From Betaproteobacteria bacterium (GTDB lineage: Bacteria; Pseudomonadota; Gammaproteobacteria; Burkholderiales; Usitatibacteraceae): DNA of 17,426 nt. Positions 3,264-17,426 of the stretch are shown piece after piece (position 1 is the stretch's first letter; every line of letters begins with the position of its first letter). The notes beneath the pieces were generated by a model. That model was not told where the DNA came from. It ran no database searches and saw nothing but the letters and a program-made list of their open reading frames with translations. Position numbers and translations under genes: made by a program. The DNA lies in assembly GCA_003105245.1 (NCBI GenBank), contig PQAI01000207.1, positions 21,915 to 39,340 of the forward strand, in the 5' to 3' direction.

Positions 3264-3272
3264 CCGTTCCCG

Positions 3273-4607
3273 GTGCCGCGCCAGCGCACTTCCCCGGCGC
3301 GCGCGCCGCGGGTGGGCTTCGTCTCCCTCGGCTGCCCCAAGGCCCTCGTCGATTCCGAGTCGATCCTCACGCAGCTGCGGGCGGAGGGTTACGACATCGC
3401 CCCCACCTACGAGGGCTCCGACCTCGTGGTGGTCAACACCTGCGGCTTCATCGACGCGGCGGTGGAGGAATCCCTCGAGGCCATCGGGGAGGCGCTCGCC
3501 GCCAACGGCAAGGTGATCGTGACCGGCTGCCTGGGCGCCCGGGGCGACGTCGTCCGCGAGGCGCACCCTCGCGTGCTCGCCGTCACGGGACCGCACGCCA
3601 CGCCCGAGGTGATGGCCGCGGTCCACGCGCACCTGCCGCGGCCGCACGATCCCTTCACCGACCTCGTGCCCCCGCAGGGCATCCGGCTCACCCCCCGGCA
3701 CTACGCGTACCTCAAGATCTCCGAAGGCTGCAACCACCGCTGCACGTTCTGCATCATCCCGTCGATGCGCGGCGACCTCGTGAGCCGCCCCGTGGGCGAG
3801 GTGATGAAGGAGGCCGGGAGCCTCGTGCGCGCGGGCGTGAAGGAACTCCTGGTCATCTCCCAGGACACCAGCGCCTACGGCGTGGACGTGAAGTACCGGA
3901 CCGGCTTCTGGGACGGCAGGCCGCTGCGCACGCGCATGACGGAGCTTGCCGGGGCGCTGGGCGGCCTGGGCGCCTGGGTGCGCCTGCACTACGTCTACCC
4001 GTACCCGCACGTCGACGAGGTGATCCCGCTCATGGCGGAGGGCCGGATCCTGCCCTACCTCGACGTACCCTTCCAGCACGCGAGCCCGCGCATCCTCAGG
4101 CTCATGAAGCGCCCGGCGGCGACCGAAAGAAACCTGGAGCGCATCCGTGCCTGGCGGCGCGAGTGCCCGCGGATCGCCATCCGCTCGACCTTCATCGTCG
4201 GCTTCCCCGGCGAGACCGAGGCCGAGTTCGAGGAGCTGCTCGCGTTCCTTCGCGAGGCGAGCCTGGATCGGGTGGGCTGCTTCGCGTACTCGCCGGTGGA
4301 CGGGGCGAAGGCGAACGGGCTGCCCGGCGCCGTCCCCGAGGAAGTGAAGCGGGATCGGCTCGCGCGCTTCATGGCCGTGCAGGCGGAAGTCAGCCGCGAG
4401 AGGCTCGCGGCCCGCCTGGGCGAGGAGTGCGAAGTGCTCGTCGACGACGTGGAAGGAGGCGTGGCCGTGGCCCGCAGTTACGCCGAGGCCCCGGAGATCG
4501 ACGGCGTGATCCGCGTGAAGGGCGCGAAGGGAGCGAAGCCCGGCGACCTGCTGCGCGTTCGCATCGCGGCAGCCGGCGAGCACGACCTCGAGGCGGTGCC
4601 GGCCTGA
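3273..4607 (+). CDS. rimO: Ribosomal protein S12 methylthiotransferase RimO
   Basis: A 444-residue radical-SAM enzyme that adds a methylthio group to the conserved aspartate of ribosomal protein S12 (Asp88 by E. coli numbering), in the cytoplasm. The N-terminal MTTase domain has the three cluster cysteines Cys21 ([12 protein letters not shown], the form seen in RimO rather than MiaB), Cys57 (NTCGFID) and Cys86 (TGCLGA). The radical-SAM cluster is CNHRCTFC with Cys153, Cys157 and Cys160. The C-terminal TRAM domain is roughly residues 375-444. Length is standard. The start is GTG at 3273, since no in-frame ATG occurs before the first cluster motif; a weak GGAAG lies in the end of phaR. The stop is only 3 bases from the stop of the opposing kinase gene, with no visible terminator between them. 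Confidence 0.95.
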
Positions 4608-4610: not shown

Positions 4611-6419
4611 TCACGGGCCGCCGCCCTCGCGGGCCGCCGGCATCTCGATCCAGAAGGTGGTGCCGCGGCCGCTTTCCGAGTCGAACCCGATTCGCCCCCC
4701 CATGCGCTCGACGATGGCGCGGGCGATGGACAGCCCCAGCCCCGTTCCCCCCTTCTCCCGCGAGTCCGACGAGTCGGCCTGGGCGAACTTCTCGAATACG
4801 CGCGGCCGGAAGGCCTCGGGGATGCCGGGACCGCGGTCGGCCACGCAGATGCGCACGGCGCCCGCCGCGAGCGTGGCGGCGATGCGTACCTCCTCGTCGC
4901 GGGGCGAGAACTTCGCCGCGTTGGACAGCAGGTTGGTGACGGCCTGCATCAGGCGGTCGCGGTCGCCGCGCAGCGTCGCCGCCGGCACGGGCTCGTCGAG
5001 GAAGAGGAAGACGCCGTGCGCCTCGGCGAAGCCCTGGTTCAGGCGCACGGCCTCGGCGAGGAAAGCGGGCAGCGGGAATTCGGTTGAACGGAAGGCGAGG
5101 GCTCCCGAGCCGACGCGCTCGACGTCGATCACGTCGTCCACGAGGCGCGCAAGGCGCAGGCTGTTGGCGTGTGCCATGTCCACGAAGGCGCGGGCGGCCC
5201 CTTCGAGCTCGCCCGCCTCGCCGGAGCGCAGGAGCGAGAGGGACCCCACGATCGCGGTGAGCGGGGTGCGCAGCTCGTGGCTCACCGACGCGATGAACTC
5301 GCTCTTCAGGCGCTCGACGGCGCGGCGCTCGGAAATGTCGCGGATCACGAGCGCGACGCGCGGGCCGTGCGCCGTCTCGAAGCGGCTCATCGCGAATTCC
5401 GCCGCGAAGGCTTCGCCGTCGGCGCGCCGTGCCGTGGCCTCGAGGCCGGCGCGCGTCCCCGCGCCGGCGCGCATGCCGGCGAGGGCCTCCCGCAGGCGTG
5501 GCGCGTCATCCCCGGACACGAGCGCGAGGACGGACGTGCCCTCGTGGGTGCCGGATCCCTTCCCGAAGAGCTCGGGAAGGCGCGGATTGGACCAGGTGAC
5601 CGTTTCCCGGTCGTCGACGATGACGAGCGCCTCGGACAGGCCGTTGAGGAATGCGGCGAACCGAGTCTCGCTCGCGCGCGCGCGCTCCTCGGCCTCCTGC
5701 CGCACCGCGACCTCGCGTCGCAGCACCTCGTTGCGCTCGGCCGCGGCGCGAAATCCCCGGGCGATGACCGCGGCCATGAAGGCCACGGCAAGGAGCAGCG
5801 CGAGGCCGGCGCGCAGCGCGAAATCGCGCGCGTCCTCCGTGAGCCGGTTCACCTCGAAGGAAGCCGCGCGGATTTCCGCGGCAAGCCGGTTCTCCAGGTG
5901 GTCGCAGAGCCCGCGAACGCCATCGACCCGCTTTCGCCCCTCGCCGCGGGCGACGATCTCGTCGATGGCCGCGGCGTCGGCGGCCCCGCGGGCGGCGCGC
6001 CGGCGCTCCAGCAGCGGCCGCTGGAACGCCTTGCGCCAGTCGAGCGAGAGCGCCTCGACGTGCTCGAGCGTCGCGAGGCGCTCGGCCTGGCCGCTCCAGC
6101 GCTCGCGCAGCGTGGCCGCCGCCGCATCGAACTCGCGCTCGCCCCGCTGCGCGGGCTCGAGGAACTCCTCGCGGCCGGTGAGCAGGAAGCCGCGCGTGCC
6201 GGACTCCATGTCGATCATGGACTTCTCGACGCCTCGCACCTCGGCGAGGTCCTGCAGCAGCTCGCGCTGGCGATTCGCCGCGGAGTCCACCTCGGCGAAT
6301 CCGCGCAGGATCTCCCATTCGGTGAGCGCCACCAGGCCGATCAGGAGCAGCGTCCCGGTCGCCATGAGCGGCGCCATCCACGGCCCGAGCGGGCGGATCG
6401 TCCTCAGCGGCCCTGCCAC
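4611..6419 (-). CDS. CHASE3-PAS sensor histidine kinase
   Basis: A 602-residue membrane kinase. A first membrane segment (about residues 16-36) and a second (about 202-222) enclose a CHASE3 sensor region, recognised by the stretch around MIDMESGTRGFLLTGREEFL (68-87). A PAS domain covers about 250-362. The kinase core has the H box VSHELRTPLTAI with phospho-acceptor His381, the N box with Asn500, the G1 box DRGPGIP (528-534), the F box FEKFAQ and the G2 box GGTGLGLS (557-564); all look intact. There is no receiver domain, so it must signal to separate proteins, probably the receivers encoded upstream. The GTG start at 6419 is supported by GGAGG 5 bases upstream (6429-6425) and overlaps the glycosyltransferase gene by 16 bases; ATG at 6377 is an alternative. 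It is the last gene of the long minus-strand cluster. Confidence 0.9.
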   Translation of the reverse strand: MAGPLRTIRPLGPWMAPLMATGTLLLIGLVALTEWEILRGFAEVDSAANRQRELLQDLAEVRGVEKSMIDMESGTRGFLLTGREEFLEPAQRGEREFDAAAATLRERWSGQAERLATLEHVEALSLDWRKAFQRPLLERRRAARGAADAAAIDEIVARGEGRKRVDGVRGLCDHLENRLAAEIRAASFEVNRLTEDARDFALRAGLALLLAVAFMAAVIARGFRAAAERNEVLRREVAVRQEAEERARASETRFAAFLNGLSEALVIVDDRETVTWSNPRLPELFGKGSGTHEGTSVLALVSGDDAPRLREALAGMRAGAGTRAGLEATARRADGEAFAAEFAMSRFETAHGPRVALVIRDISERRAVERLKSEFIASVSHELRTPLTAIVGSLSLLRSGEAGELEGAARAFVDMAHANSLRLARLVDDVIDVERVGSGALAFRSTEFPLPAFLAEAVRLNQGFAEAHGVFLFLDEPVPAATLRGDRDRLMQAVTNLLSNAAKFSPRDEEVRIAATLAAGAVRICVADRGPGIPEAFRPRVFEKFAQADSSDSREKGGTGLGLSIARAIVERMGGRIGFDSESGRGTTFWIEMPAAREGGGP

Positions 6420-7804
6420 GTGCCCCTCCGGGTCATCGTTCCCCACTGCGCGCGGGCGCCGCGCAACCAGCGCGCGAGCCCGACGAGGCGCCAGACCGTG
6501 ACGAGCTGGCGGTAGCCGAGGTTCTCGACGACGGCGGCGGCCACCAGCCTCGCCACGTGCGACCAGCGCGGGTAGAGGTGGAAGGACACCTCCTCGAGCA
6601 GAAGCGCGCTCGCCGACAGGAGGAAGCCCATGGAGAAGGCGAGCGCGAGAAAGGCGAGGAAGGCCTCGCCGGAGATCCGTCCGGTGACGACGAGCGCCGC
6701 CATGAAGGCGTAGCCGGCGACCTCGATCACCGGCCCCCAGCACTCGAAGACGAGGAAGAACGGGTAGGCCGCGTGCCCGGGCGCGCCGCCGCCCGGCGAC
6801 AGGAGGAGCGCGCGGTTGAGCGAGAGGCTCTCGGCCAGCCCGCGCTGCCAGCGCACGCGCTGGCTCCTGAGGACCGCCGCGGATTCGGGCGCCTCGGTCC
6901 AGCAGATGGGGTCGGGGACGAAGTGGATCGCGTAGGGCTCGCCGCGCTCGCGGTAGAGGCGATGCAGGCGAACGACCAGCTCCATGTCCTCGCCCATCGT
7001 GTCGGTGCGGTAGCCCCCGGCGGCCACGACGGCGTCCTTCCGGAACACGCCGAAGGCGCCGGAGATGATGAGCACGGCGTTGAGCGTGGCCCAGCCGAGG
7101 CGGCCGAAGAGGAAGGCGCGCAGGTATTCGACGATCTGGAGGAGGGCCAGCGGATTCGAGGGCAGCCCCACGCGCTCGAGCTGGCCTGCGCTCACGACGC
7201 AGCCGTTGGCGATGCGCACCGTCCCGCCGGTGGCCACGGTGCGGGGGTCGTCGATGAACGGCTGGATCACGCGTCTCAGGCTGTCGCGCTGCAGGATGGA
7301 GTCCGCGTCGATGGCGCAGAAGAGGGGGTATCGGGAGACGTTGATGCCGACGTTCAGCGCGTCGGCCTTCCCGCCGTTCGCCTTGTCCACCACGCGCAGC
7401 CCCGCGTGCCGGCGCGACACGTAGACCGCGCCGAGAGGCTTGCCGGGGATCCGCTCCCAGTAGGCCTCGGGGAAGGGCTCGAGATCGAAGGCCTCGCGCA
7501 GCCGCTCGAGCGTGGCGTCGCGCGAGCCGTCGTTCACGACCACCACCTCGAACTCCGGGTAGTCGAGCTGCAGCAGCGATCGCACCGAGGTGACGATCGT
7601 GGCCTCCTCGTTGTACGCGGGCACCAGGACCGACACCGGGGGCTCGAAGCCGGAGTAGACCGGCGGAAGGTCCTCGAGCGGGCGGATCGCGAGGTAGCGG
7701 CGCAGCGTGGGCACGGCGAGGAGGTTGAGCGCGATGTAGCCGAGATTCACGCCCACGAAGTAGGCGAGAAAGACCCACTGCAGCGCGTCGAGGGCCGCGC
7801 TCAA
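6404..7804 (-). CDS. Family 2 membrane glycosyltransferase
   Basis: A 466-residue processive-type GT2 enzyme of the cellulose/poly-GlcNAc/hyaluronan synthase kind. After an N-terminal membrane segment (about 8-30) comes the nucleotide-sugar domain: SVLVPAYNEE (58-67), VVVVNDGSRD (87-96), the metal-binding DAD (166-168), the acceptor-site GED (271-273) and the QRVRW motif (315-319), all as expected. Hydrophobic stretches at about 345-375, 380-403 and possibly 418-445 would form the transmembrane exit path. No PilZ domain is present, so direct c-di-GMP control as in BcsA is not expected. The start is TTG at 7804, in a TTGA overlap with the HEAT gene stop; AAAGGG lies 7 bases upstream and no ATG or GTG precedes the first membrane segment. 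Its position beside a YaiO-type porin suggests synthesis of an exported glycan. The sugar cannot be read from sequence. Confidence 0.88.
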   Translation of the reverse strand: MSAALDALQWVFLAYFVGVNLGYIALNLLAVPTLRRYLAIRPLEDLPPVYSGFEPPVSVLVPAYNEEATIVTSVRSLLQLDYPEFEVVVVNDGSRDATLERLREAFDLEPFPEAYWERIPGKPLGAVYVSRRHAGLRVVDKANGGKADALNVGINVSRYPLFCAIDADSILQRDSLRRVIQPFIDDPRTVATGGTVRIANGCVVSAGQLERVGLPSNPLALLQIVEYLRAFLFGRLGWATLNAVLIISGAFGVFRKDAVVAAGGYRTDTMGEDMELVVRLHRLYRERGEPYAIHFVPDPICWTEAPESAAVLRSQRVRWQRGLAESLSLNRALLLSPGGGAPGHAAYPFFLVFECWGPVIEVAGYAFMAALVVTGRISGEAFLAFLALAFSMGFLLSASALLLEEVSFHLYPRWSHVARLVAAAVVENLGYRQLVTVWRLVGLARWLRGARAQWGTMTRRGTWQGR

Positions 7805-8856
7805 GACGGCGCCCTTTCGGCGAGAACCTGCGCGAGCATTCCCCCGGCGGCGGCGCCTTGGGCTCGGGCGCGGAAATCGGCCAGCTCGGCCGCCGAGAGC
7901 CCGGGCAGCGAGACGATGGCCTGGGCCGCGTGGTAGCGCACCCACCACGATTCGTCCTCGAGGAGCCCGAGGAGAAGCGCCAGTTCCCGCTGCGAGCCGA
8001 TCCTCCCGAGCGCGCGGGCGGCCGCCATTCGCACGCCCCAGTCCGGGTAGCGGGCCGCGCCCCGGACCTGCGCGAGGTCCGCGGCGTCCTGGGCGAAATC
8101 GAGCGCCGCGGCGATCACGCGCGGCTGGGCGCTCCTCGCGAGCCAGCCGTTCACGATGGGGGCCACCCGCTCGCGGTGTGCGAAGCGCGCGAGCTTGAGG
8201 AGGCGCTCCAGGCCCTCGGGCGGCGGCGAGGCGAGCAGGCGCTCCACCGCTGGCGTGACGGCCTCCGGCCCCGCCTCCTGCAGCGCCGTCCCCAGGCGGG
8301 CGAGGGACCAGTCCTGGCGGCGCAGGGCATCGGGCAGGAACTCGAGCGCGCGCGCGGCGTCGATGCGCAGCAGCGCCCGCGCCGCCGCGAACGACAGGAC
8401 CGCATCCGGCGTACGCGCGAGCGCGGCGAGGTCTTCCCAGGCATGCACCTCGCGCAGGTGTCCCAGCGCCACGACCGCCGCAAGCCGGTGGGCGAGGTTG
8501 CGCCGGCGGGAGAGGTCCCGGATCGGCGCCACGAGGCCGGCGGCACGCACCGCCTGCGAAAGGTGCGCCGCTGCCTCGCCGCGCAACGACTCCTGGAGGT
8601 GGTTGTAGAGGCGAAGGAAGACGGGAAGGTCGGCGGGCGCCACCGGGGGAAGCCGCGCGGCGGCCGGGTCGTCCATGGCCTCGTGGAGCGCGGCGCGCCA
8701 TCCGGCCACGCGGATGGCCAGCCGGCGGTCGCGGCTGCCGCGCCAGAGTCGAAGGACGAGAAGGGCGGCGATGAGCGCGGCCGCGGAAATCGCGGCGCCG
8801 GCGGCCGTGCCCAGGGCGAGGGCGACGGGAAAGCTAGAAGTGAATTCGGGCGCCAA
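7801..8856 (-). CDS. Membrane-anchored HEAT-repeat protein
   Basis: A 351-residue protein. One membrane helix (about 10-36) is followed by an Arg-rich stretch (RLWRGSRDRRLAIR), so the rest should face the cytoplasm. From about residue 85 to 320 it has repeated helical pairs of the HEAT/PBS-lyase type, clearest at RNLAHRLAAVVALGHL (119-134), YPDWGVRMAAARALGRIG (270-287) and DESWWVRYHAAQAIVSLPG (301-319). Such repeats form protein-binding scaffolds; no catalytic motif is visible. The start is TTG at 8856, which overlaps the end of the barrel gene by 23 bases. There is no clear ribosome binding site, so translation may depend on coupling, and the exact start is less certain. It ends in a TTGA overlap with the glycosyltransferase, suggesting that the two proteins work together, perhaps with this one linking the synthase to a receiver protein. 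Confidence 0.82.
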   Translation of the reverse strand: MAPEFTSSFPVALALGTAAGAAISAAALIAALLVLRLWRGSRDRRLAIRVAGWRAALHEAMDDPAAARLPPVAPADLPVFLRLYNHLQESLRGEAAAHLSQAVRAAGLVAPIRDLSRRRNLAHRLAAVVALGHLREVHAWEDLAALARTPDAVLSFAAARALLRIDAARALEFLPDALRRQDWSLARLGTALQEAGPEAVTPAVERLLASPPPEGLERLLKLARFAHRERVAPIVNGWLARSAQPRVIAAALDFAQDAADLAQVRGAARYPDWGVRMAAARALGRIGSQRELALLLGLLEDESWWVRYHAAQAIVSLPGLSAAELADFRARAQGAAAGGMLAQVLAERAPS

Positions 8857-9583
8857 GGCGAAGCGTCTGCCGCGTATAGCGATCGCCCTGGCGGTGGTGC
8901 TCGAGGTCGGCCAGGAGAGCCCAGCCGCGGCCGACGCCCAGGGCGGCCGACAGCGTCGCGCTGCGCACGTCGTCCGTGACCAGGCCCACGCCGGGCACGT
9001 TCTCCGACTCCCGGCCGCGAGCGTAACCCGCCTCGACGCGCGTGTCGCCGTCGCCGTACCAGCTCGCCGTCAGGCGGTGCACGGGCGACCAGGCGCCGCC
9101 TTCGGGGCGCGACTCGAATACGGTCCAGGCGAAGCGCAGGTCGCGGACGTAGCGCTCGACGGCGGCATTCGCGCCGGAAACCGATGCGGTCGCGTATTGC
9201 GCGCGGCGGGCGGCCGCCGAGACGACCCAGCCGCCGCCAAGCTCGCGGTAGATCGTGGCGAGCGCGGACCACTCGGGGAGAACCGACGCCGACCCGGCGC
9301 CGCTCGCCTCCAGCGCCGCCACCCACCCGGGGGAGAGGCCGGTCGAGAAGCCCGCGGCCGCCTCGCGGTCGCGCTCGCCGTAGCGAACGGTCTCGCGAAG
9401 GCGAAGGAACGCCGAGCGCTCGCGCCCGGACCGCCAAAGCAGCTGGGCGCCCGCCTCGCGCCAGTCCTCGAACCCCTTGTCGAGGTTCTCCCTCGCTCCG
9501 AAGAACTGCGCCTCGAGCTGCGCCGGTTCCGCCGCCAGCGCGGGCCCGAGGGCCAAGGCGGCCAGGGCTCCGGCAAGCCTCAT
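8834..9583 (-). CDS. YaiO-family outer-membrane beta-barrel protein
   Basis: A 249-residue exported protein. Residues 1-18 form a signal peptide (cleavage near ALAAEP). The remainder alternates polar and hydrophobic residues in short strands ending in aromatic residues, for example REAGAQLLWRSG, GWVVSAAARRAQY, and the final LRLGARIHF with a C-terminal Phe, the usual outer-membrane insertion signal. Length and the tandem strand pattern fit the YaiO outer-membrane family (E. coli YaiO is about 257 residues). In E. coli, yaiO lies close to the glycosyltransferase gene yaiP, and here a GT2 gene is two genes downstream, so a role in glycan export or surface attachment is plausible. The ATG overlaps the stop of the preceding receiver gene (ATGA, 9580-9583). 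The family call rests on pattern and context rather than a single diagnostic motif. Confidence 0.75.
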   Translation of the reverse strand: MRLAGALAALALGPALAAEPAQLEAQFFGARENLDKGFEDWREAGAQLLWRSGRERSAFLRLRETVRYGERDREAAAGFSTGLSPGWVAALEASGAGSASVLPEWSALATIYRELGGGWVVSAAARRAQYATASVSGANAAVERYVRDLRFAWTVFESRPEGGAWSPVHRLTASWYGDGDTRVEAGYARGRESENVPGVGLVTDDVRSATLSAALGVGRGWALLADLEHHRQGDRYTRQTLRLGARIHF

Positions 9584-9954
9584 GCGGGCGGCACCAGCCG
9601 GCGCACGCGCGCCTTGAGCTCCGCGGGCTGGAACGGCTTCACCATGTAGTCGTTCGCGCCCGCGTCGAGCGCGCGGACGATATCGTCCTCGTGCGACTTG
9701 GCAGTGAGCATCACCACGGGAACCCCGCGCCACGCGGCCGCGGCGCGGATGGCGGCGAGCACGTCGTGTCCCGTGGCGTGCGGGAGCATCACGTCGAGCA
9801 GCACGAGTTGCGGCGCGTCGCCTTGCGCCACGCGGGCGAGCGCCGCGCGGCCGTCGCGCAGGTGGGTCACCTCGAAGCCCTCCCGTTCCAGGATGAAGCG
9901 CAGCAGTTGCCCGATGTCCGGGTCGTCCTCGACGACGAGGGCGGCGCGCGCCAT
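9580..9954 (-). CDS. CheY-like response regulator (receiver only)
   Basis: A 124-residue protein made of one receiver domain. The acidic pair Asp10-Asp11, phospho-acceptor Asp54 (LVLLDVMLP), switch Thr84 (VVMLTAK) and Lys106 (VKPF) are all present. There is no output domain, so it should act by binding partners, as CheY does. It starts 6 bases after the stop of the extended receiver gene and overlaps the YaiO-type gene by four bases. This places it between the signalling genes and the glycan genes; a likely role is to pass the phospho-signal to the export or synthesis complex. Confidence 0.92.
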   Translation of the reverse strand: MARAALVVEDDPDIGQLLRFILEREGFEVTHLRDGRAALARVAQGDAPQLVLLDVMLPHATGHDVLAAIRAAAAWRGVPVVMLTAKSHEDDIVRALDAGANDYMVKPFQPAELKARVRRLVPPA

Positions 9955-9960
9955 CGGCCT

Positions 9961-10536
9961 TCAGTGCCCCAGGACCGAGCGCACCGCGGCCACGAGCGCG
10001 TTGGCCGCGATGGGCTTGGCGATGTAGCCGTCGGCCCCCGCCTGCAGGCCCCGCACGATGTCGACCTGCGCCGCGTGCGCGGTGAAGAGCACGACCGGCG
10101 TGTCGAAGAGGTGCTTGTGGCGGCGGATGCGGCGCAGGAACTCCAGGCCGTTCATGTCCGGCATCTCCACGTCGAGGAGCAGCAGCTCCGGCGCGCCAAC
10201 GCGCGACATGAGCCGCGCCGCGTCCTTCGCGCCCAGGGCCACGACCGCCTGGTAGCCGGCCTTGCGCAGCACGTGCGCGGCGAGCTCCGCGGTGGGCGCG
10301 TCGTCGTCGACGACCATGATGACGTGGTTGGAGGGGCTGCCCGGCCGCGGCCGCACGAGAACGACGTGGAAGCCTTCCTCGCCGAGCGCGGTGGCGCCGA
10401 TGAGGGCGTTCTCCTCGACTTCGGGCGTGGGAGGCGGAGGCGGCGGGGGAGGCGGCTCTCCCGGCTCCTCGACCAAGGCGGTGAAATCGAGGTCGGTCGG
10501 ATCCTCGGGGTGGGCGGGCGCCGGCTTGGCGGTCAT
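9961..10536 (-). CDS. Response regulator with proline-rich N-terminal extension
   Basis: A 191-residue protein with an unusual 70-residue N-terminal extension before a receiver domain. The extension has an acidic motif DLDFTALVEE (15-24), nine consecutive prolines (28-36) and ENALIGATALGEEGFHVVLVR (42-62). The receiver has VVDDD (75-79), phospho-acceptor Asp122 (LLLLDVEMP), Thr152 (LFTA) and Lys174 (AKPI). No output domain follows. It is a paralogue of the protein at 11069-11629: the two share the receiver almost throughout and the two extension motifs. The proline run implies dependence on elongation factor P and may be a spacer. The ATG has only a weak upstream GAGA; the gene follows the glycine-zipper gene by 32 bases. 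The function of the extension is unknown to me. Confidence 0.9.
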   Translation of the reverse strand: MTAKPAPAHPEDPTDLDFTALVEEPGEPPPPPPPPPTPEVEENALIGATALGEEGFHVVLVRPRPGSPSNHVIMVVDDDAPTAELAAHVLRKAGYQAVVALGAKDAARLMSRVGAPELLLLDVEMPDMNGLEFLRRIRRHKHLFDTPVVLFTAHAAQVDIVRGLQAGADGYIAKPIAANALVAAVRSVLGH

Positions 10537-10568
10537 GTCTCGCTGCCCGGGGCGCTCCCGGCGCGCCG

Positions 10569-10991
10569 CTACTGCCGCGTGAGCTTCCCGTCGACGACCT
10601 TGATCTTGTCGCCGACGCGGTAGCTGGTTTCCTTGGAGAAGTTGAAGGTGCGGCTCTTGCCGTCCTCCATCTTCACGATCACCTGGTAGGTGGTGGTCGA
10701 CTTCTGGCTCTTCTCGACCTGGTGGCCCGCGTAGGCGCCGGCACCCGCGCCAACGATGGTGGCCGCGGTGTTGCCGCGGCCGCTGCCGACCTGGTGGCCG
10801 AGCACGCCGCCGAGGACGCCGCCGGCCACCGCGCCGACGCCGCTCGCCTCGCCTTCCTTCTTGACCGTCTTCACGTCCGTCACCGTGCCGCAGGTGGGGC
10901 AGGAGGCGGAGGCCGACAGCGGGGCGGCGGCGGATGCGGCGAACAGGAGCGCGGCCGCGAGGAGCGGGGCGCGCGAAGAGAGGGCTTTCAT
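10569..10991 (-). CDS. Glycine-zipper 2TM domain envelope protein
   Basis: A 140-residue exported protein. Residues 1-29 are a signal peptide ending SASA; Cys31 and Cys34 (CPTC) follow, and the lipobox match is poor, so cleavage by signal peptidase I is more likely. Residues 51-92 are a glycine zipper (GVGAVAGGVLGGVLGHQVG, then NTAATIVGAGAGAYAGHQVE), the pattern of Rickettsia 17-kDa antigen/SlyB-type proteins. The C-terminal part (TYQVIVKMEDGKSRTF, VGDKIKVVDGKLTRQ) is a small beta domain also common in this family. GGAGG lies 8 bases before the ATG at 10991; an earlier in-frame ATG gives no signal peptide at its N-terminus. It sits between two paralogous receivers, with 77 bases upstream that could hold a promoter. 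Such proteins affect envelope stability; no specific role here can be assigned. Confidence 0.88.
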   Translation of the reverse strand: MKALSSRAPLLAAALLFAASAAAPLSASASCPTCGTVTDVKTVKKEGEASGVGAVAGGVLGGVLGHQVGSGRGNTAATIVGAGAGAYAGHQVEKSQKSTTTYQVIVKMEDGKSRTFNFSKETSYRVGDKIKVVDGKLTRQ

Positions 10992-10999
10992 CGTTCCAT

Positions 11000-11004
11000 C
11001 CTCC
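11000..11004 (-). promoter_or_regulatory. Ribosome binding site of the glycine-zipper gene
   Basis: GGAGG on the minus strand, 8 bases before the ATG at 10991. It decides this start over the upstream in-frame ATG at 11042. The 77-base gap (10992-11068) is the longest inside the cluster; I see no convincing promoter there, only TACCAT as a weak -10. Confidence 0.8.
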
Positions 11005-11068
11005 GGAAATGTCGCGTGGGCACAGCAGGGAAATGGTAGCACGCGCCCTCCCGGCCGGAGGCAGGCGG

Positions 11069-11629
11069 CTAGTTCGAAAGCACCGTCTTCACCGCCGAGA
11101 CGAGCGCCGCCCCCGAGATGGGCTTGGCGATGTAGCCGTCGGCGCCCGCGAGCAGCCCGCGCACGATGTGGCGCCGCTCGTTCAGGGCCGTGAACAGGAC
11201 CACGGGCGTGTCCTTCAGGTGCTTGTTGGCCCGCATCCGGGCCAGGAACTCGAAACCGCCCATGCCGGGCATCTCGACGTCGAGGAGCACCAGGGCCGGG
11301 GCTCCCAGCGTGGTCATGTGGCGCGCCGCGTCGCGCGGGTTGCCCACGACGGCGGCCTGGTAGCCCGCCTTGCGCAGCACGCGCGCGGCCAGCTCGCCCG
11401 TGGGCAGGTCGTCGTCGACCACGAGGATCACCTGCGCGGCGACGGGGCGGGGCGGCTTTCCCGTGTGGCGAGCGGCGATGAGGTGGAAGCCCTCGGCTCC
11501 GAGCGCCCGGGCGCCGATGAGCGCCTCCTCTTCCTCGGCCGGCGTGGGCATCTCGCGCACCGGCGGGGCCGGGATCTTCTCCTCGGCGAGCGAGGTGAAG
11601 TCGAGGTCGTCCGGATCGGGGCTGCTCAA
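11069..11629 (-). CDS. Response regulator with conserved N-terminal extension (paralogue)
   Basis: A 186-residue receiver protein with a 65-residue N-terminal extension that repeats the motifs of the paralogue at 9961-10536: DLDFTSLAEE (8-17) and EEALIGARALGAEGFH (34-49), but without the long proline run. The receiver has VVDDD (70-74), phospho-acceptor Asp117 (LVLLDVEMP), Thr147 (LFTA) and Lys169 (AKPI). There is no DNA-binding or enzymatic output domain. The start is TTG at 11629, in a TTGA overlap with the stop of the upstream receiver gene; GGAGG (11641-11637) is 7 bases before it. The shared extension points to a common partner for the two proteins. Gene order suggests duplication of a receiver gene with the glycine-zipper gene caught or inserted between the copies. 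Confidence 0.9.
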   Translation of the reverse strand: MSSPDPDDLDFTSLAEEKIPAPPVREMPTPAEEEEALIGARALGAEGFHLIAARHTGKPPRPVAAQVILVVDDDLPTGELAARVLRKAGYQAAVVGNPRDAARHMTTLGAPALVLLDVEMPGMGGFEFLARMRANKHLKDTPVVLFTALNERRHIVRGLLAGADGYIAKPISGAALVSAVKTVLSN

Positions 11630-12030
11630 GGCGCGCCCTCCGCGGCGGGGAAGTTCTCGGCCCAGATCTGCGCGATCTGGCGCCCGAGCTTCAGGGGGTC
11701 GAAGGGCTTGGACAGCGTGCCGATGGCGCCCGCGGCGCGGTAGCGCTCGAGGTCGGCCGGGTTGATGCGCGCCGTGAAGAAGATGGCCGGGACCGTCACG
11801 CCCGACTCGCGCATCTTCGCGAGGAGTTCCATCCCGTCCATCCCGGGCATGTTCATGTCGATGAGCAGTATCTCCGGCGCGAACCCGGGCGCGGCCTCGA
11901 GGGCCTCCTGGCCCGAACTGCAGCTGAAGACGTCGAAGCCGCCGATCTTGCCCAGCGCCAGCTTCACGATCCCGCGGATGTCGGGCTGGTCGTCGACGTG
12001 GAGGATGCGCTTGAAAGGAGCCAGTGGCAT
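11626..12030 (-). CDS. CheY-like response regulator (receiver only)
   Basis: A 134-residue single receiver domain. Asp13-Asp14, phospho-acceptor Asp58 (LLIDMNMPGMDG), Thr86 (FFTA) and Lys108 (SKPF) are present. It begins 4 bases after the stop of the three-PAS kinase and is the most likely first target of that kinase. It has no output domain and overlaps the next receiver gene by four bases. It differs clearly in sequence from the two extended receivers. The ATG lacks a strong ribosome binding site, which fits coupling to the kinase gene. Confidence 0.92.
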   Translation of the reverse strand: MPLAPFKRILHVDDQPDIRGIVKLALGKIGGFDVFSCSSGQEALEAAPGFAPEILLIDMNMPGMDGMELLAKMRESGVTVPAIFFTARINPADLERYRAAGAIGTLSKPFDPLKLGRQIAQIWAENFPAAEGAP

Positions 12031-12034
12031 GCCG

Positions 12035-13987
12035 CTATTGTGCCACCGGCGCTTCCGGAAGATCGAACCAGAACACGGTGCCGCCGCCGGGCGCGTCCTC
12101 GAAGCCGATCGCCCCGCCCAGGCGGGTGACGATCTCGCGGCTGATCGCGAGCCCCAGGCCCGTGCCCGTGGAGGCCCGGTTGTCGCCGGAATCGGCCTGC
12201 GAGAAGGGCTGGAAGATGCGGCTGCGGAAACTCTCGGGGATCCCCGGCCCGCGGTCGCGGATGCGCGTTCGCACGCCGCCGCCGGGCGCGCGGCCCGCGC
12301 CCACGGTGACCTGGCCGCCCGCCGGGGAGAACTTCGCCGCGTTGAGGATGAGGTTCGAGAGCACCTGGGAGAGGCGGTCCGGGTCGCCCAGCACGCGCAG
12401 CTCCTCCACGGGCTCCAGCTCGAAGGAGACGTCGAACTGCTGCATGAGGCCGCGGCTCGCCTCGACCGCCTCGCGCAGCAGCGCGCGCCAGTCCAGGGGC
12501 TCGATGCGGAAGCTGACGTGGCCCGCCGACATCTTCTCGATGTCGAGGAGGTCGTTCACGAGCCGCCACAGGCGGTCGGAATTCTGCAGGGCGATGTCCA
12601 CCAGGGGCTTCGCCTCCTCGGGGAGCTCGCCCGCGACCCCGCCGGAGAGCAGCCCCAGGGAGCCGCGCATGGCGGTGAGCGGCGTGCGCAGCTCGTGGCT
12701 CACAACCGACACGAAGTGGTCCTTCATGCGGTCGGCCTCCTTGAGGCGCGTCACGTCGATCCCGAGCACGATCACGCCCTCGACCTCGCCGTCCGCGCCC
12801 CGCAGCGGCCAGTTCAGCACGTCGAGGTCGACGGTCCGTCCCGAGGCGTTGGGGCGTTGCGTCGAGTAGTGAGTGGGGACGCCGGAGAGCGCCTGCACGA
12901 GGTTGGGCTCGACCTGCGCGAAGCGCTCCGGGCCGAGGATGTCGCGGACGGACTTGCCGTTGATCTCGTAGCTCGGCAGGCCGGTGAGCTCCGCGTAGGC
13001 CTTGTTGTGGATGAGGATGCGCTGCTCGCGGTTCACGAAGATGATGGCCGCCGGCATGAATTCCACCAGCTGGCGAAGCTGCAGCTCGCTCTTGCGCAGG
13101 CGCTGCTCGGCGAGCCGGCGGTCGGTGATGACCCTCGCGAGCCCGCGGTAGCCGCGGAACCTGCCCTGCTCGTCGGCGATGGGCACCGCGCCTACCGAGA
13201 GCCACGCCTCGCGGCCGTCGGGCGACACCTGCCGGATCTCCAGGTCGCGGAAGGGCTTGCGCGCCTCGAGGACGGCCCGGTGCGCCCCCCAGTCGGCCTC
13301 GGTGAGCTCGGGCGCGTCCAGCTCCGGGCTGGGCAGCAGCGAATCGCGCCGGCGGGCCCACGCCGGGGCCGACCAGGAGATGAGGTGGAAGTGCTCGTCC
13401 TGTTCCCAGTACAGGTCCGAGGAGAGCTCCGTGAGCGCCCGGAACCGCTCCTCGCTTTCCGCCAGCGATTTCTCGGCGAGCCTCCTCGAGGTGATGTCCG
13501 CGTTGGTGCCGCTCACGCGCAGGGCGCGCCCCTGGGCGTCGCGGGCGATCACCTTGCCGCGCGTGCGGATCCACAGCCAGGTGCCGTCGTTGGCCCGGAT
13601 GCGGAACTCGGCGTCGAAACGCTCGGCAGTGCCCTTCAGGGCGTCGATCGCGGCCTGCTTCACGCGCTCGACGTCGTCGCGGTGCACCAGCGCGAAGAGG
13701 TCCGCGATCGGGGCGCGCGACTCCCGGGGCTCCGCGCCCAGCATCTGCTTCCAGTTGGCGTTGAGCCACATGCTGTCGGACGCGACGTCCCAGTCCCAGA
13801 TCGTGAGGGAGGAACCCTCCAGGGCGAAGCGGATGCGGTCGCGCTCGCTCGCCACCGCGGCGTTGGCCTGCTCGAGGGCGCGTTGCCGGCGGCGCAGCAG
13901 GACGAGGGCGAGGGCGAGGACGACGGAGGCGACCGGTGCGAGCGCGAGAAGGAAGGCGTCGACGAAGGAGACGGTGACCTGGTCCAT
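12035..13987 (-). CDS. Sensor histidine kinase with three PAS domains
   Basis: A 650-residue kinase with one N-terminal membrane helix (about 9-31), hence no real periplasmic sensor domain. Three PAS domains follow at about 50-170, 177-293 and 298-418; the first two end in PAC-type motifs (VSGTNADITSRRLAE, YRGLARVITDRRLAE). The kinase core has phospho-acceptor His431 (VSHELRTPLTAM), N-box Asn549, G1 DRGPGIP (578-584), F box FQPFSQ and G2 GTGLGLA (608-614), all intact. The core is closely similar to that of the kinase at 4611-6419, suggesting related partners. It lacks a receiver domain; a free Hpt protein is encoded 7 bases upstream and a receiver 4 bases downstream, which together form a split phosphorelay. 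The cytoplasmic PAS domains suggest redox, light or small-ligand sensing, but the cofactor is not evident. Confidence 0.92.
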   Translation of the reverse strand: MDQVTVSFVDAFLLALAPVASVVLALALVLLRRRQRALEQANAAVASERDRIRFALEGSSLTIWDWDVASDSMWLNANWKQMLGAEPRESRAPIADLFALVHRDDVERVKQAAIDALKGTAERFDAEFRIRANDGTWLWIRTRGKVIARDAQGRALRVSGTNADITSRRLAEKSLAESEERFRALTELSSDLYWEQDEHFHLISWSAPAWARRRDSLLPSPELDAPELTEADWGAHRAVLEARKPFRDLEIRQVSPDGREAWLSVGAVPIADEQGRFRGYRGLARVITDRRLAEQRLRKSELQLRQLVEFMPAAIIFVNREQRILIHNKAYAELTGLPSYEINGKSVRDILGPERFAQVEPNLVQALSGVPTHYSTQRPNASGRTVDLDVLNWPLRGADGEVEGVIVLGIDVTRLKEADRMKDHFVSVVSHELRTPLTAMRGSLGLLSGGVAGELPEEAKPLVDIALQNSDRLWRLVNDLLDIEKMSAGHVSFRIEPLDWRALLREAVEASRGLMQQFDVSFELEPVEELRVLGDPDRLSQVLSNLILNAAKFSPAGGQVTVGAGRAPGGGVRTRIRDRGPGIPESFRSRIFQPFSQADSGDNRASTGTGLGLAISREIVTRLGGAIGFEDAPGGGTVFWFDLPEAPVAQ

Positions 13988-13994
13988 GGTGGCT

Positions 13995-14297
13995 TCAGCC
14001 CGTGGCCGGCAGGCTCGCGCGAAGCAGCGGCACGAGGCGCTCGACCGCGCCGCGGTCGCCGCGTGCCGCCGCCTCCTCGAGCTCGGCGCCGATGCGGCCG
14101 GCCTCGGGGAACCCGAAGGGGGCCGAGGAGCCCTTGAAGGCGTGGCCGACGGCGCGGGCGGTGGCGAGATCGCCTGCCGCGAGCGCCGCCTCCAGGCGGG
14201 CGAGATCGGCCCGGCGCGCCTCGAGGTACAGGCCCATGAGCTCGCGGATGTCGTCCGAGAGGTCGAAGGGCGTGTCGCCGGGGGGGGGCTGGGTCAT
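13995..14297 (-). CDS. Free histidine phosphotransfer (Hpt) protein
   Basis: A 100-residue all-helical protein. The phospho-acceptor motif is VGHAFKGSSAPFGF with His52 and the typical Lys and Gly-Ser that follow. Hpt proteins shuttle phosphate between receivers, here presumably those encoded downstream. The ATG at 14297 overlaps the stop of the caspase-like gene (ATGA); a longer reading frame upstream would run back into that gene and is not needed. Codons 4-6 contain a run of nine C residues on this strand, a tract that could slip during replication and shift the frame right after the start. Confidence 0.9.
   Translation of the reverse strand: MTQPPPGDTPFDLSDDIRELMGLYLEARRADLARLEAALAAGDLATARAVGHAFKGSSAPFGFPEAGRIGAELEEAAARGDRGAVERLVPLLRASLPATG
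14280..14288. repeat. Nine-base G/C homopolymer in the Hpt gene
   Basis: Nine consecutive G on the plus strand (C on the coding strand) at codons 4-6 of the Hpt gene, encoding part of TQPPPGD. Insertion or loss of one base would abolish the protein. Whether it varies cannot be told from one sequence. Confidence 0.8.
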
Positions 14298-16540
14298 GGG
14301 CGCACGAAGTAGAAATCGCCGGTGAGGGACGACGATTCCCACGGGACCTGAAGGTCCCGGGACTCGGTGGCGACGGCCGCGCGCACCCGCTTGAAGACGT
14401 CCTCGATACGAAGGCCGGGCACGCGCATCTCGCGCAGAAGGTGGCGCGTGTAGAGGCCGTTTCGCCCCTCGCCGTCGTCGGCGGTCTTGCCCGGGGAGGT
14501 GGAGTAGGCGATGAGCGTGCCTTTCGGAGCGTCGATCGACGCGAGCCCGCGCCTGCCGCCGCGCGCCGTGCGTGCGAACGGATTGTCGCGGCAGGCGTCG
14601 AGCACGATGAGGTTGAGCCTGTTCCTCGCCTGCTCGATGCGCGAGAGCACGACGCCCACGTTGAGCGCGCGGTACTGAACGTCCTTTTCCGCGCGCAGGT
14701 CCGCGTCGACGGGAACGAGGTAGTTCTCGCCGTCGACCTGCACGCCGTGGCCGGCGTAGAAGAACAGGCCCACGCCGCGCGAGGCGGCCAGCCGCCCGGC
14801 GAACTGGTCGATCGCGCGGTTGAGGGATTCGAGGGTGGCGTTCTCCACGCGGATCACCTCGAAGCCCGAGTCGGCGAGCGCGCGCGAGAAGTCGCGCGAG
14901 TCGTTCACGGCGTTGCGAAGCGGCGCGCGGCCGTAGGCGGCGTTGCCAACCACGAGGGCCACGCGGCGCTCGCCGCCGGTATCCGCGGTGACGGGCGTGG
15001 CCGGCGTCTCGGGACCGGCGGAGGACCCCGAAAGCGCCACGAGCCGCTCGACGGCCTCCATCGCGCCCGGCGCCGTGGAGGCCTGGCGATACAGGCGCAG
15101 CGCCGGCTCGAGGCGGCCCTCGGACTCCTCGCAGGTCGCCGCGTTGTAGGCCACCGCCGGCGCCGCGGATTCGACCTCCGCGAGCGAGCGGAAGGTCCGG
15201 CAGGCACGCTCCTCGTCGCCCTGCAGCGCCGCCTGGATGGCGGAGCCGAACTCCTGGCGAGCCGAGGCGGAGCGGATCTCGGCGTCGGGCACCAGGAAGC
15301 GCTTCTGGATGCCCGCGAGCGACTGGGAAATGATCTCGCGGATGTTCTGCATGACCTCCCGGCGCGCCTCCTGCAGCAGTTCGTCAGCCGGCGGCGGCGA
15401 CTGGAACCCGCAGCCGTCGCCGGAGGCGGTGCCCACGACGGTGTCGGAGAAGGCGCTGCGTCCGCTCGCGACCTCGGCCAGGGTGAGCTGCGCCTGCCAC
15501 TCCGCCGTTCGGCGCGTGCAGACGATCTCCATCGGCGCCTGGTCGATGCACTCCTCCGTTCGCTTGTCCTGCAGGTCGGTGCGGCGCACCTTGATGCACT
15601 TGAGGCCGGGCTGGGTGACCGGAACGTCGCTCACGCGCGGGGCGAGCACCACGCCGAAGAGCACCATGTCGGCCTCCATCTGCTGGCCTGCGCGCACCAT
15701 CGCCAGGGACCGCGATGCCGGCACCCGGAGCCCCTCGACTTCCTGCGCCGCGGCGATCGTGCGCACGGAGCGCGAGGCTCCGCTGCCGGTCACCGCGAGG
15801 AATTTCTGCACCTCCTCGCCGAAGCCCGCGCCGCGGTCGCCCGCAAAAGGCAGCATCAGGAGGCCCACGCTGCTGCGCGACTGGACGCGGACCGCGAGGC
15901 GGCGCGCGAGATCTGCCACCGCGGGATCGCGAGCGGGGTGGGCGGCGACGGCGTCGAGCAGGGGCACCATGTCGCCGGTCTGCCCCATACGGTCGATCAC
16001 CGAGAGCGTGAAGAGCTCCGGCAGCAGGTCCTCGGCGGGCCATTCGCGGCGCCAGCCGGGAAGGCCGGCTTGAAGGCGCTCGATCCGGGAACGCGCCTGC
16101 GGGGAAAGCGGCGGGACGAGGCGGCGGCCGGGGTCCTGCGCGTAGGCGTAGTGGAATGAGCCGGCGAGGCGCAGGTCGGCGGCGGACGGCGCGGAATCCG
16201 GCAGCACCCGGGTGTCGAGGCGGCCCGAGACGGCCTCGATGCCCGCGGGACCCACCCGAAGGCGTGCGGGCGCCCGGGCGCGCTCGGTGCGGCGCCCCTG
16301 GGGCAGCAGCAGCGCGATGCGGGCCGCGCCGTCCAGCGCGACCTCGTCGCCGGCCTGAAGGGGAAGGAACAGCCGCAACGCGACGGGCTGCCCGCCGCGA
16401 AGCAGCGTGGTGCCCGGCGAGATCTCGTAGGGGAAGGCCACCGGCGCCTCCTCGGCGAGGACGGGCGTGGTGGCGAGGACGGCCGCGATCGCCGCGGCCC
16501 GGACGAGCGCCTCGATCGACAAGTCGAGGGAGCGCCTCAC
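14294..16540 (-). CDS. Secreted multidomain caspase-like (peptidase C14) protein
   Basis: A 748-residue protein with a signal peptide (1-29, ending PVLA), so it should be periplasmic. Residues 36-105 look FecR-like (a GTTLLRGG start, then a GDEVALDGAARIALLLPQGR pattern). Residues about 223-300 resemble the TolB/LpoB/CsgG fold (SVGLLMLPFAGD, then QMEADMVLFGVV). Cysteines 315, 331, 341 and 377 could form disulphides. Residues 435-490 are TPR-like (AYNAATCEESEGRLEPALRLYRQAS). The caspase domain covers 524-748: RVALVVGNAAY (526-536), catalytic His598 (FFYAGHGVQ) and Cys650 (LDACRDNPF), both present, so it is probably active. Such proteins cleave after basic residues in known metacaspases; the substrate here is unknown. 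The start is GTG at 16540 with only weak upstream GGATG. It is the first gene of the cluster and overlaps the Hpt gene by four bases, tying it to the phosphorelay. The domain calls before 520 are tentative; the caspase call is firm. Confidence 0.88.
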   Translation of the reverse strand: MRRSLDLSIEALVRAAAIAAVLATTPVLAEEAPVAFPYEISPGTTLLRGGQPVALRLFLPLQAGDEVALDGAARIALLLPQGRRTERARAPARLRVGPAGIEAVSGRLDTRVLPDSAPSAADLRLAGSFHYAYAQDPGRRLVPPLSPQARSRIERLQAGLPGWRREWPAEDLLPELFTLSVIDRMGQTGDMVPLLDAVAAHPARDPAVADLARRLAVRVQSRSSVGLLMLPFAGDRGAGFGEEVQKFLAVTGSGASRSVRTIAAAQEVEGLRVPASRSLAMVRAGQQMEADMVLFGVVLAPRVSDVPVTQPGLKCIKVRRTDLQDKRTEECIDQAPMEIVCTRRTAEWQAQLTLAEVASGRSAFSDTVVGTASGDGCGFQSPPPADELLQEARREVMQNIREIISQSLAGIQKRFLVPDAEIRSASARQEFGSAIQAALQGDEERACRTFRSLAEVESAAPAVAYNAATCEESEGRLEPALRLYRQASTAPGAMEAVERLVALSGSSAGPETPATPVTADTGGERRVALVVGNAAYGRAPLRNAVNDSRDFSRALADSGFEVIRVENATLESLNRAIDQFAGRLAASRGVGLFFYAGHGVQVDGENYLVPVDADLRAEKDVQYRALNVGVVLSRIEQARNRLNLIVLDACRDNPFARTARGGRRGLASIDAPKGTLIAYSTSPGKTADDGEGRNGLYTRHLLREMRVPGLRIEDVFKRVRAAVATESRDLQVPWESSSLTGDFYFVRP

Positions 16541-16569: not shown

Positions 16570-16598
16570 TTGTCGCGTGCGCCCGGTGCGCCTAGAAT
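16570..16598 (+). promoter_or_regulatory. Promoter of the lipoprotein gene
   Basis: TTGTCG (16570-16575), a 17-base spacer and TAGAAT (16593-16598) form a fair sigma70 promoter on the plus strand, 35 bases before the lipoprotein ATG. The 11-base palindrome GGGTGACACCC (16603-16613) sits at the expected start of transcription and could be an operator. I found no clear promoter for the divergent caspase operon in the same 93-base gap. Confidence 0.6.
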
Positions 16599-16633: not shown

Positions 16634-17188
16634 ATGAAGAGCGTCCTGGCTGCCGTCGGTTCCGCATTGCTTGCCGCGGGTTGCGCGACGCCGGGCGCGC
16701 CCACCGAGCAGGTCGTGGGCGGGGCTGCTCCGGCGCAAGGCGACGAGGTTCAGGCGGTCGCGCTCGAGACCGTGGATGCCGCGCAGGTCCCGGTGGACGC
16801 CGTTCGCTGCAGCCTTCGCAACGACAAGGGCGCCTGGGAGGTCCGGACCCCGGGCACCGCGAGGGTGATGCGCTCGACGCGGCCCCTGGAGATCGTCTGC
16901 CTGAAGCCCGGCTACCGCGCGTTCGTGCACGCGACCGAATCCCAGGGCGACCTCATCGGCTCGGCGTTCAAGGGCGCGGCCATCGGCGGTGCGGCGACCG
17001 CCGTGGTCGCCACGCCCCTGCTGGCCATTCCCGTATTCGGACCGCTCATATACGCGGGCACCGTCGGTGGGACGGCGCTGCTTGGAGGCACCGTGAGCGC
17101 GGTAGTGGATCACGGCAAAGGCACGCCCTACCGCTACCCCGACCGGCTCGTGCTGCCGCTCACGCCCGAGCCGGGCGCCCGCCGCTAG
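16634..17188 (+). CDS. Putative lipoprotein with PEGA-like and glycine-rich hydrophobic regions
   Basis: A 184-residue protein whose start MKSVLAAVGSALLAAGC has a lipobox-like end with Cys17, so it is probably lipid-anchored in the envelope. Residues 56-100 (VRCSLRNDKGAWEVRTPG, then LEIVCLKPGYRAF) resemble the small PEGA-type beta domains common in bacterial surface lipoproteins; Cys59 and Cys89 may pair. Residues 108-158 are glycine-rich and hydrophobic, like a glycine zipper. The ATG at 16634 is preferred because GAAGG lies just upstream and the signal peptide starts there; an upstream in-frame ATG would bury it. I do not recognise a named family. It diverges from the caspase operon and converges with lysS, leaving only 7 bases between the two stops. 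Confidence 0.8.
   Translation: MKSVLAAVGSALLAAGCATPGAPTEQVVGGAAPAQGDEVQAVALETVDAAQVPVDAVRCSLRNDKGAWEVRTPGTARVMRSTRPLEIVCLKPGYRAFVHATESQGDLIGSAFKGAAIGGAATAVVATPLLAIPVFGPLIYAGTVGGTALLGGTVSAVVDHGKGTPYRYPDRLVLPLTPEPGARR

Positions 17189-17195: not shown

Positions 17196-17426
<231 letters not shown>

Follow-up and report, generated by a model that had tools for sequence, protein, structure and literature searches.

Do twelve tightly packed genes in a Betaproteobacteria bacterium, encoding a caspase-like protein, a two-component phosphorelay and a glycan synthesis and export module, form one system? The question is raised by a stretch of 17,426 nucleotides (hereafter the window; assembly GCA_003105245.1, contig PQAI01000207.1, part of the contig handled here as C207) from a genome of 300 contigs that is 93.86% complete. 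A first-pass annotation had proposed a single machine, in which the phosphorelay controls a surface glycan and a periplasmic caspase-like protein acts as its sensor, processor or safeguard. On the data seen, the twelve-gene single-system reading does not stand. The reading that we favour, and consider rather probable, is that the cluster is a layered mosaic at an insertion-tolerant lysS-rimO site, and that one of its layers, a glycan unit of receiver, outer-membrane barrel, HEAT-repeat protein, GT2 synthase and histidine kinase, works as a line of its own in the manner proposed below.

Gene content and spacing of the locus

Two fixed landmarks frame the gene stack: downstream of it rimO (3273..4607, plus strand), for which 36 of 41 genomes gave a match at E 1e-150, and upstream of it the 3' end of lysS (17199..17426, minus strand; tblastn 87% over 76 aa, 2.9e-38). 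They enclose twelve genes on the minus strand and one on the plus strand; positions given below are on the minus strand unless stated otherwise. From lysS towards rimO, the twelve genes (4611-16540) encode a caspase C14 protein, an HPt protein, a PAS histidine kinase without a receiver, a stand-alone receiver (RR1), an extended receiver (xRR1), a glycine-zipper protein, a second extended receiver (xRR2), a second stand-alone receiver (RR2), a YaiO barrel, a HEAT-repeat protein, a GT2 protein and a CHASE3-PAS histidine kinase. Gene positions and domain matches confirm the count, the orientation and the domain kinds given in the first-pass annotation, and the spacing is also as it described, mostly 4-base overlaps or gaps below 10 bases. 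Caspase and HPt, RR1 and xRR1, and RR2 and YaiO overlap by 4 bases, and YaiO and HEAT by 23; the gaps are 4 bases between kinase and RR1, 6 between xRR2 and RR2, and 7 between HPt and kinase. The only long gaps, of 77 and 32 bases, flank the glycine-zipper gene. The HEAT-GT2 join reads as a 4-base TTGA overlap, and the GT2 and kinase genes overlap by 16 bases provided that the kinase begins at the GTG at 6419, a start that we chose, as we did those of the HPt (14297), glycine-zipper (10991) and GT2 (7804) genes; the start of the HEAT gene is uncertain.

A promoter and terminator scan found terminator-like sites across the window at chance level (4 against 3.8 in shuffled sequences) and a single promoter-like site at 16570-16598, near the plus-strand lipoprotein gene, where 0.2 were expected. 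Rfam gave no match in the window at gathering thresholds.

The glycan unit and its recurrence across phyla

The glycan unit, which we number as layer 3 and regard as the core module, opens with RR2 (9580..9954, 124 aa; PF00072 1.7e-29). The next gene encodes a barrel of 249 aa (8834..9583; PF19413 4.1e-17) that belongs to the YaiO outer-membrane family, as its TIGR04390 match (1.9e-36) scores 126 bits against a curated cut-off of 32. The HEAT-repeat protein (7801..8856, 351 aa from a start that is uncertain; PF13646 1.7e-14) was modelled with AlphaFold2 at a mean pLDDT of 95.7, and the predicted fold consists of one long N-terminal hydrophobic helix followed by a solenoid. A hydrophobic N-terminal segment is present in 68 of 70 aligned HEAT proteins, and three of the four best conserved residues (R276, A279 and V306) fall in the last repeats; the rows listed in fold searches with this model were HEAT/ARM-type repeat and scaffold proteins and gave no functional hint. 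The GT2 protein (6404..7804, 466 aa; PF13641 9.8e-24, PF00535 3.8e-23), a processive-type synthase by sequence, starts at a TTG that overlaps the HEAT stop codon. The unit is completed by a CHASE3-PAS-HisKA-HATPase_c histidine kinase (4611..6419, 602 aa), syntenic in the related genome G003 with 66% identity. The unit has both its own receiver and its own kinase.

The recurrence of this unit was assessed in 88 GT2 loci, comprising the best 80 of at least 570 from a GT2 profile search of GTDB contigs and 8 from related genomes; in many of these loci the sequence stops short of the full flank, which makes the absences lower limits of what may lie beyond contig ends. Within this set a HEAT protein was found in 85 loci, YaiO in 56 and HPt in 22. 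In 80 loci a HEAT gene precedes GT2 by no more than 500 bases in the same orientation, and in 63 a codirectional receiver gene lies up to 4 kb upstream; the 25 loci with no receiver in that range include all seven from Nitrospirota. A kinase was found within 6 kb in 39 loci, but in only 4 is it the next gene downstream in the same orientation. In 12 loci a simple gene caller gave no adjacent HEAT-GT2 pair, and these stand outside the following count: among the 76 pairs, whose most frequent spacing is a 4-base overlap, a receiver gene lies directly upstream or just above YaiO in 57. The linkage of receiver, HEAT protein and GT2 across phyla is thus a direct observation in this best-scoring and related set, and two-component genes beside GT2, HEAT and barrel genes recur widely; this part of the pairing of phosphorelay and glycan genes put forward earlier holds.

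The receivers themselves retain the residues of phosphorylatable domains, the phospho-Asp being kept in 60 and the Lys in all of the 63 module receivers from these best 80 and 8 related loci. On a receiver-domain tree the module label needs 18 changes, whereas none of 300 shuffles gave fewer than 43. One group, with support of 0.31-0.69, brings together 30 of the 58 module receivers that carry the label, including RR2 and excluding RR1, xRR1 and xRR2; the other 28 fall outside this best group. It also contains seven unlabelled rows, five of which (L021, L045, L046, L060 and L071) come from loci whose pair was missed by the labelling, and two (L047 and L048) from loci where the receiver adjoins HEAT without GT2.

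The barrel follows a different distribution. YaiO is present in 28 of the 34 Pseudomonadota loci of the same best-80-plus-8 set and in none of the nine Bacillota, five Actinomycetota and one Chloroflexota loci; it is therefore unseen in those largely single-membrane phyla, where the receiver-HEAT-GT2 arrangement was seen. It is also absent from some diderm loci of the set, namely 6 of the 34 from Pseudomonadota, three of the four from Gemmatimonadota, and the single Acidobacteriota and Myxococcota loci. Two loci from archaeal metagenome-assembled genomes (MAGs) carry HEAT-GT2, one of them with a receiver too, and binning error is possible for both.

A check that started from the HEAT protein was performed with the HEAT profile alone on 369 genomes of the class, up to five candidates being scored per genome. 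It returned 22 matches, 16 of them in the family. YaiO accompanies HEAT at all 16 family loci, GT2 adjoins it at 15 and a receiver lies upstream at 10; a caspase occurs only at the window's own locus. Among these 15, GT2 is on the opposite strand in L212; at the sixteenth locus, L214, the contig ends at HEAT. The other six matches are parts of longer open frames (483-888 aa), with no module genes at these loci, and were kept outside the 16. The outcome agrees with that of the GT2 loci.

A proposed line from kinase to synthase

Taken together, gene order and conservation suggest that the signal receiver, the HEAT scaffold and the sugar-polymer synthase probably work together. Since a stand-alone receiver needs a partner and the HEAT protein is the most constant candidate, we propose a line running from kinase through receiver, HEAT and GT2 to YaiO. 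The CHASE3/PAS kinase would sense an envelope or cytoplasmic signal and phosphorylate RR2; as RR2~P has no output domain, it would act by binding a partner, here the HEAT solenoid, whose N-terminal helix may anchor it to the inner membrane next to the GT2 synthase. Binding of RR2~P to HEAT, a contact to which gene linkage alone points, would switch the synthase on. The active synthase would then polymerise and extrude a glycan, which in diderms YaiO would carry across the outer membrane. The phosphotransfer pairs, the activation of the synthase, the polymer and its export are likewise predictions. Several observations weigh against the line: the 25 of 88 GT2 loci and 6 of 16 HEAT-first loci without a receiver upstream, the scarcity of kinases directly downstream, the longer proteins in the receiver slot, the 28 module receivers outside the best tree group and the diderm loci that lack YaiO. 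Tentatively, we also propose that receiver-HEAT-GT2, with YaiO in many diderms, may be an undescribed class of synthase in which a phospho-receiver on HEAT gates polymerisation directly. Such a putative class would extend over many bacterial phyla and one archaeal MAG, the second archaeal MAG having HEAT-GT2 alone.

The receiver could also act elsewhere, on transcription via a partner or in c-di-GMP metabolism, with the HEAT protein as just a structural subunit of the synthase. HEAT is indeed more tightly linked to GT2 than the receiver is (85 against 63 of the 88 best-scoring and related loci), and two of the three longer receiver-slot proteins examined contain GGDEF (L093 and L109, not L080), so c-di-GMP control is possible there. 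However, 43 of the 57 adjacent receivers in the best 80 and 8 related loci are 170 aa or shorter and could hardly accommodate an output domain as well, the other 14 being part of a longer protein, and in two Nitrospira loci the receiver still adjoins HEAT although GT2 lies about 6 kb away. We consider an action of the receiver elsewhere somewhat unlikely.

Layered assembly at the lysS-rimO site

To follow the history of the cluster, site stretches from ten relatives were compared with the window proteins; the genus comprises eight genomes, and one genome, G004, gave no RimO match at E 1e-150. The order lysS-glycine zipper-rimO is that of the family (G005, G006, G009, G010, G012 and G014), and in G006 an extra divergent kinase (33% identical) stands between lysS and the glycine-zipper gene. 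The window's glycine-zipper gene (10569..10991; PF05433 4.6e-10), found between lysS and rimO in these six relatives, thus forms layer 1, and its product was rejected as a component of a system, since the gene's place beside rimO is ancestral in the family.

Layer 2 is the phosphorelay, consisting of the HPt protein (13995..14297, 100 aa; PF01627 3.9e-11), the PAS kinase (12035..13987, 650 aa; PAS, HisKA and HATPase_c), RR1 (11626..12030, 134 aa; PF00072 1.2e-24), xRR1 (11069..11629, 186 aa, identified by a Pfam domain match and bearing an N-terminal extension of about 65 aa) and xRR2 (9961..10536, 191 aa), the two extended receivers being 61% identical over 185 aa. HPt, kinase, RR1 and xRR1 precede the glycine-zipper gene, and xRR2 follows it, in G001, G002 and the window; G003 has the same order over two contigs, with the break inside the kinase gene, and G007 has it from the kinase onward, where its contig ends. 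At E 1e-80 the PAS kinase is found in five of the eight genus genomes, and in these five the kinase and receivers surround the glycine-zipper gene. The HPt gene adjoins lysS in G001, G002 and G003, within a few dozen bases and with neither caspase nor lipoprotein gene between. The next gene after xRR2 is rimO in G001 and G007, whereas in G002 the two are separated by an unrelated open frame of about 700 bases; this frame was considered as a remnant of the glycan block and rejected, as it is a different open frame with weak matches (best tblastn E 0.006).

The domain set of a phosphorelay (kinase, receiver and HPt) is present, with the HPt His and receiver Asp visible in the sequence, and HPt-kinase-RR1-xRR1-xRR2 would constitute a separate, lineage-restricted circuit with candidate phosphotransfer pairs of its own. 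Because it stands at the same site without the glycan genes in G001, G002 and G007, it is not dedicated to the glycan, contrary to the control over a surface glycan that had been ascribed to it.

Layer 3, the glycan unit, was found at the site in the window genome and G003 only, with gene order and position identical in the two. At E 1e-40 the GT2 protein has matches in 9 of the 120 related genomes, and the genus accounts for two of the 9. A tree places the window outside ((G001,G007),G003),G002 at 87%, with one node at 58%, so that losses of the glycan block and repeated gains are both possible. Layer 4, the caspase and lipoprotein genes, occurs at the site in the window genome alone. The layering itself is directly visible as presence and absence; the order of arrival, with caspase and lipoprotein as the most recent, is suggested by the same pattern.

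These comparisons also bear on what the tight spacing means. The caspase-HPt and xRR2-RR2 joins, of 4 and 6 bases, are evolutionary seams, for the modules on either side stand apart in relatives. Tight spacing by itself does not mark a common origin, and it should not be taken for shared function, as it was in the first-pass annotation. The 6-base xRR2-RR2 gap nevertheless fits the idea that, in the window species and G003, the glycan block has come under the phosphorelay, with xRR2 and RR2 as alternative phosphate acceptors for one output, and in both lineages that have the glycan block the phosphorelay lies directly upstream. Yet RR2 clusters, if at weak support, with foreign HEAT-GT2 receivers rather than with RR1, xRR1 or xRR2, the block brings its own kinase, and the phosphorelay persists without it in three genomes; we judge such a connection unlikely.

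Type of synthase and relation to known systems

The motif QxxRW, together with ED, is characteristic of processive GT2 enzymes. The window protein contains GED and QRVRW (315-319) and has four hydrophobic segments, which agrees with the sequence features of a processive GT2; the last motif differs elsewhere, reading QRIRR in G003 and deviating in the proteins of L024 and L025 as well. Among NCBIfam models the best match is PgaC/IcaA (TIGR03937, 3.8e-40), at 138 bits far under its cut-off of 422, and the cellulose synthase catalytic subunit model (TIGR03030) gives 57.6 bits against a cut-off of 699. The locus also differs from PgaC/IcaA systems in its neighbours, since no PgaB-type deacetylase was identified among the window genes, and HEAT and YaiO are found instead. 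YaiO itself is a family (TIGR04390/PF19413) of which the window barrel is a member by score; in E. coli, yaiO adjoins the glycosyltransferase gene yaiP and is not known to have a HEAT or receiver gene beside it.

A functional parallel is offered by the NfrB-NfrA (YbcH) system of E. coli, described in PMC8669469 as an exopolysaccharide synthase whose gating by c-di-GMP involves a specific diguanylate cyclase and, potentially, an MshEN domain. As in the account given there, the window unit combines a glycosyltransferase-type synthase, an outer-membrane partner and a dedicated local signalling protein, whose role here would be analogous; it differs in that the GT2 neighbours are a HEAT protein and a phospho-receiver. 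No MshEN domain was found in the window GT2, all six of its Pfam matches (to E 0.01) being glycosyltransferase families. In the open-access literature searched, within the limits of the search wording, we recognised no description of a receiver-HEAT-GT2 or YaiO-HEAT-GT2 module; the HEAT-repeat passages of PMC3826837, PMC12419801 and PMC7159879 do not treat such a module. The passages of PMC7383365 and PMC8594841 on YaiO give it no function, and in the passage of PMC10448405 the word is a strain name, with no function attached.

The low PgaC score and the silence of these passages on YaiO function would be compatible with a GT2 that glycosylates a lipid or protein and makes no exported polymer, YaiO then having another outer-membrane role. 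Against this, the window protein has QRVRW, though G003 and two others differ, as well as the four hydrophobic segments, and none of the 15 loci from Bacillota, Actinomycetota and Chloroflexota in the best 80 of at least 570 plus 8 related has the barrel. We therefore regard a non-polymerising GT2 as improbable, and retain polymer synthesis and export as the predicted output of the glycan unit.

The caspase-like gene and its divergent neighbour

The caspase-like protein (14294..16540, 748 aa) is predicted to be secreted. Its N-terminus is hydrophobic, a region of about 500 aa matches no Pfam family, and at the C-terminus stands a caspase domain, identified as peptidase C14 by PF00656 (6.2e-40 over 525-744; 137.8 bits against a cut-off of 21.4), its sole Pfam match up to E 0.01. 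H598 and C650, which we take to be the catalytic His and Cys of the domain, are invariant in all six aligned sequences, the window's included. The protein thus resembles bacterial paracaspase/orthocaspase-like C14 proteins in its caspase domain with a His-Cys dyad, and the solved chains found by its sequence were MALT1 paracaspases in 10 of 10 cases; it differs from them in being secreted and in its N-terminal region of about 500 aa. The model for EACC1-associated caspases (NF047832) scored 55.8 bits, below its threshold of 140. In PADLOC-DB a caspase model matched at 1.1e-8, and the five other window proteins compared had no match. A structure prediction from six aligned rows reached a mean pLDDT of 43.1, too low for use.

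A search of 5.8 billion proteins, with the best 7997 candidates scored, returned five close full-length relatives, 75-92% in alignment, which also have the N-terminal region of about 500 aa. Two of these, P0007 and P0008, come from contigs whose greatest sizes (5405 and 9308) equal those for P0098 and P0087, proteins 75% and 80% identical to xRR1. These equal sizes suggest that the caspase may adjoin the phosphorelay in the P0007 and P0008 lineages too, and so may be tied to it in further lineages. Divergent from the caspase gene is a putative lipoprotein gene (16634..17188, plus strand) with a lipobox-like LLAAGC, in an open frame that begins at 16577; no tblastn match to it at 1e-5 was found in the lysS-rimO loci of relatives outside the window genome.

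Within the genus, the full-length caspase occurs in one of eight genomes, the window's own, and the gene looks like a recent local addition. Caspase domains were found in none of the 88 GT2 loci (the best 80 of at least 570 plus 8 related), without a profile match even at E 10. As a control for detection, a single-sequence search recovered 16 of 16 caspase loci; this control is a lenient one, since the same caspase protein had served to find those loci. Elsewhere in the genus 15 further caspase genes occur, on 13 stretches of 5-20 kb that are often truncated at contig ends, and none of these stretches holds a GT2, HEAT, YaiO or HPt gene. One of the 13 stretches holds a receiver and a kinase a few kilobases off.

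Caspase and glycan genes are thus not neighbours in the data seen, the very pattern that the first-pass annotation had named as fatal to its single-system reading, and the caspase was rejected as part of the glycan system on its absence from those 88 loci and its presence in one of eight genus genomes; with it falls the remaining part of the earlier pairing, the periplasmic sensor, processor or safeguard. That all twelve genes nonetheless act as one system is very unlikely, for although they are codirectional and mostly overlapping or at most 10 bases apart, with the caspase stop overlapping the HPt start, the caspase is missing from the GT2 loci, the glycan genes are missing around the other caspase genes, G001, G002 and G007 have the phosphorelay but no glycan block at the site, and G003 has phosphorelay and glycan block with HPt right after lysS and no caspase there.

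Implications for the control of polysaccharide synthesis

The control of exported polysaccharides has mostly been described as transcriptional or as exerted by c-di-GMP on the synthase complex. The recurring receiver-HEAT-synthase operon, without the barrel in monoderms and with it in many diderms, points to direct control of polymerisation by a two-component system. If true, this would be the phosphorylation counterpart of c-di-GMP-gated synthases. The module also offers cultured species for a test, such as Vreelandella and Massilia: the locus of Vreelandella subterranea (L062) has kinase, receiver, YaiO, HEAT and GT2, and that of Massilia alkalitolerans DSM 17462 (L051) has receiver, HEAT and GT2 but no YaiO. 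The value of the window lies in the view that it gives onto a recurrent receiver-HEAT-GT2 synthase module, which merits specialist attention.

Composition and divergence of the glycan block

Comparison of the glycan block in the window with its counterpart in the related genome G003 (locus L020) revealed 88% identity for the GT2 synthase but 64%, 70% and 66% for the YaiO barrel, HEAT protein and CHASE3 kinase, respectively; judged by these sequence identities, the synthase diverges much more slowly than the other parts. In the Nitrospira loci L047 and L048, the receiver–HEAT pair is retained about 6 kb from GT2, and YaiO lies between them on the opposite strand. Locus L064 belongs to a metagenome-assembled genome, although it is recorded as Klebsiella pneumoniae, a label that may be wrong. 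Sulfatase-superfamily proteins (PF00884) were found close to the module in three tested loci, L066 (12720–15110), L112 (5450–7816) and L115 (4806–7268), and could possibly act as polymer modifiers.

The extended receivers of the phosphorelay, xRR2 (window 9961–10536) and xRR1 (11069–11629), share the motif DLDFT..L.EE ... ALIGA.ALG.EGFH, located N-terminal of the receiver domain and detected, among the loci scanned for it, only in the window and G003. One relative, P0040, carries an additional HPt domain.

Variability of the lysS–rimO site

Flanking the stack on the rimO side, the window encodes a phaB-like reductase (994–1743) and a phaR-like regulator (2661–3263) of PHA storage, both named from reading of the sequence only; comparison of relatives' loci demonstrated that the synteny of these genes and rimO (window 994–4607) is maintained within the family. 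In the related genome G002 (locus L162), an unrelated open frame with a lipobox-like start (13960–14690), situated between xRR2 and rimO, fills the position that the glycan block occupies in the window and G003, and the site is therefore tolerant of insertions. A different histidine kinase (33% identity in the kinase part), located between lysS and the glycine-zipper gene in G006 (L164, 874–3759), represents one more use of the lysS–rimO site.
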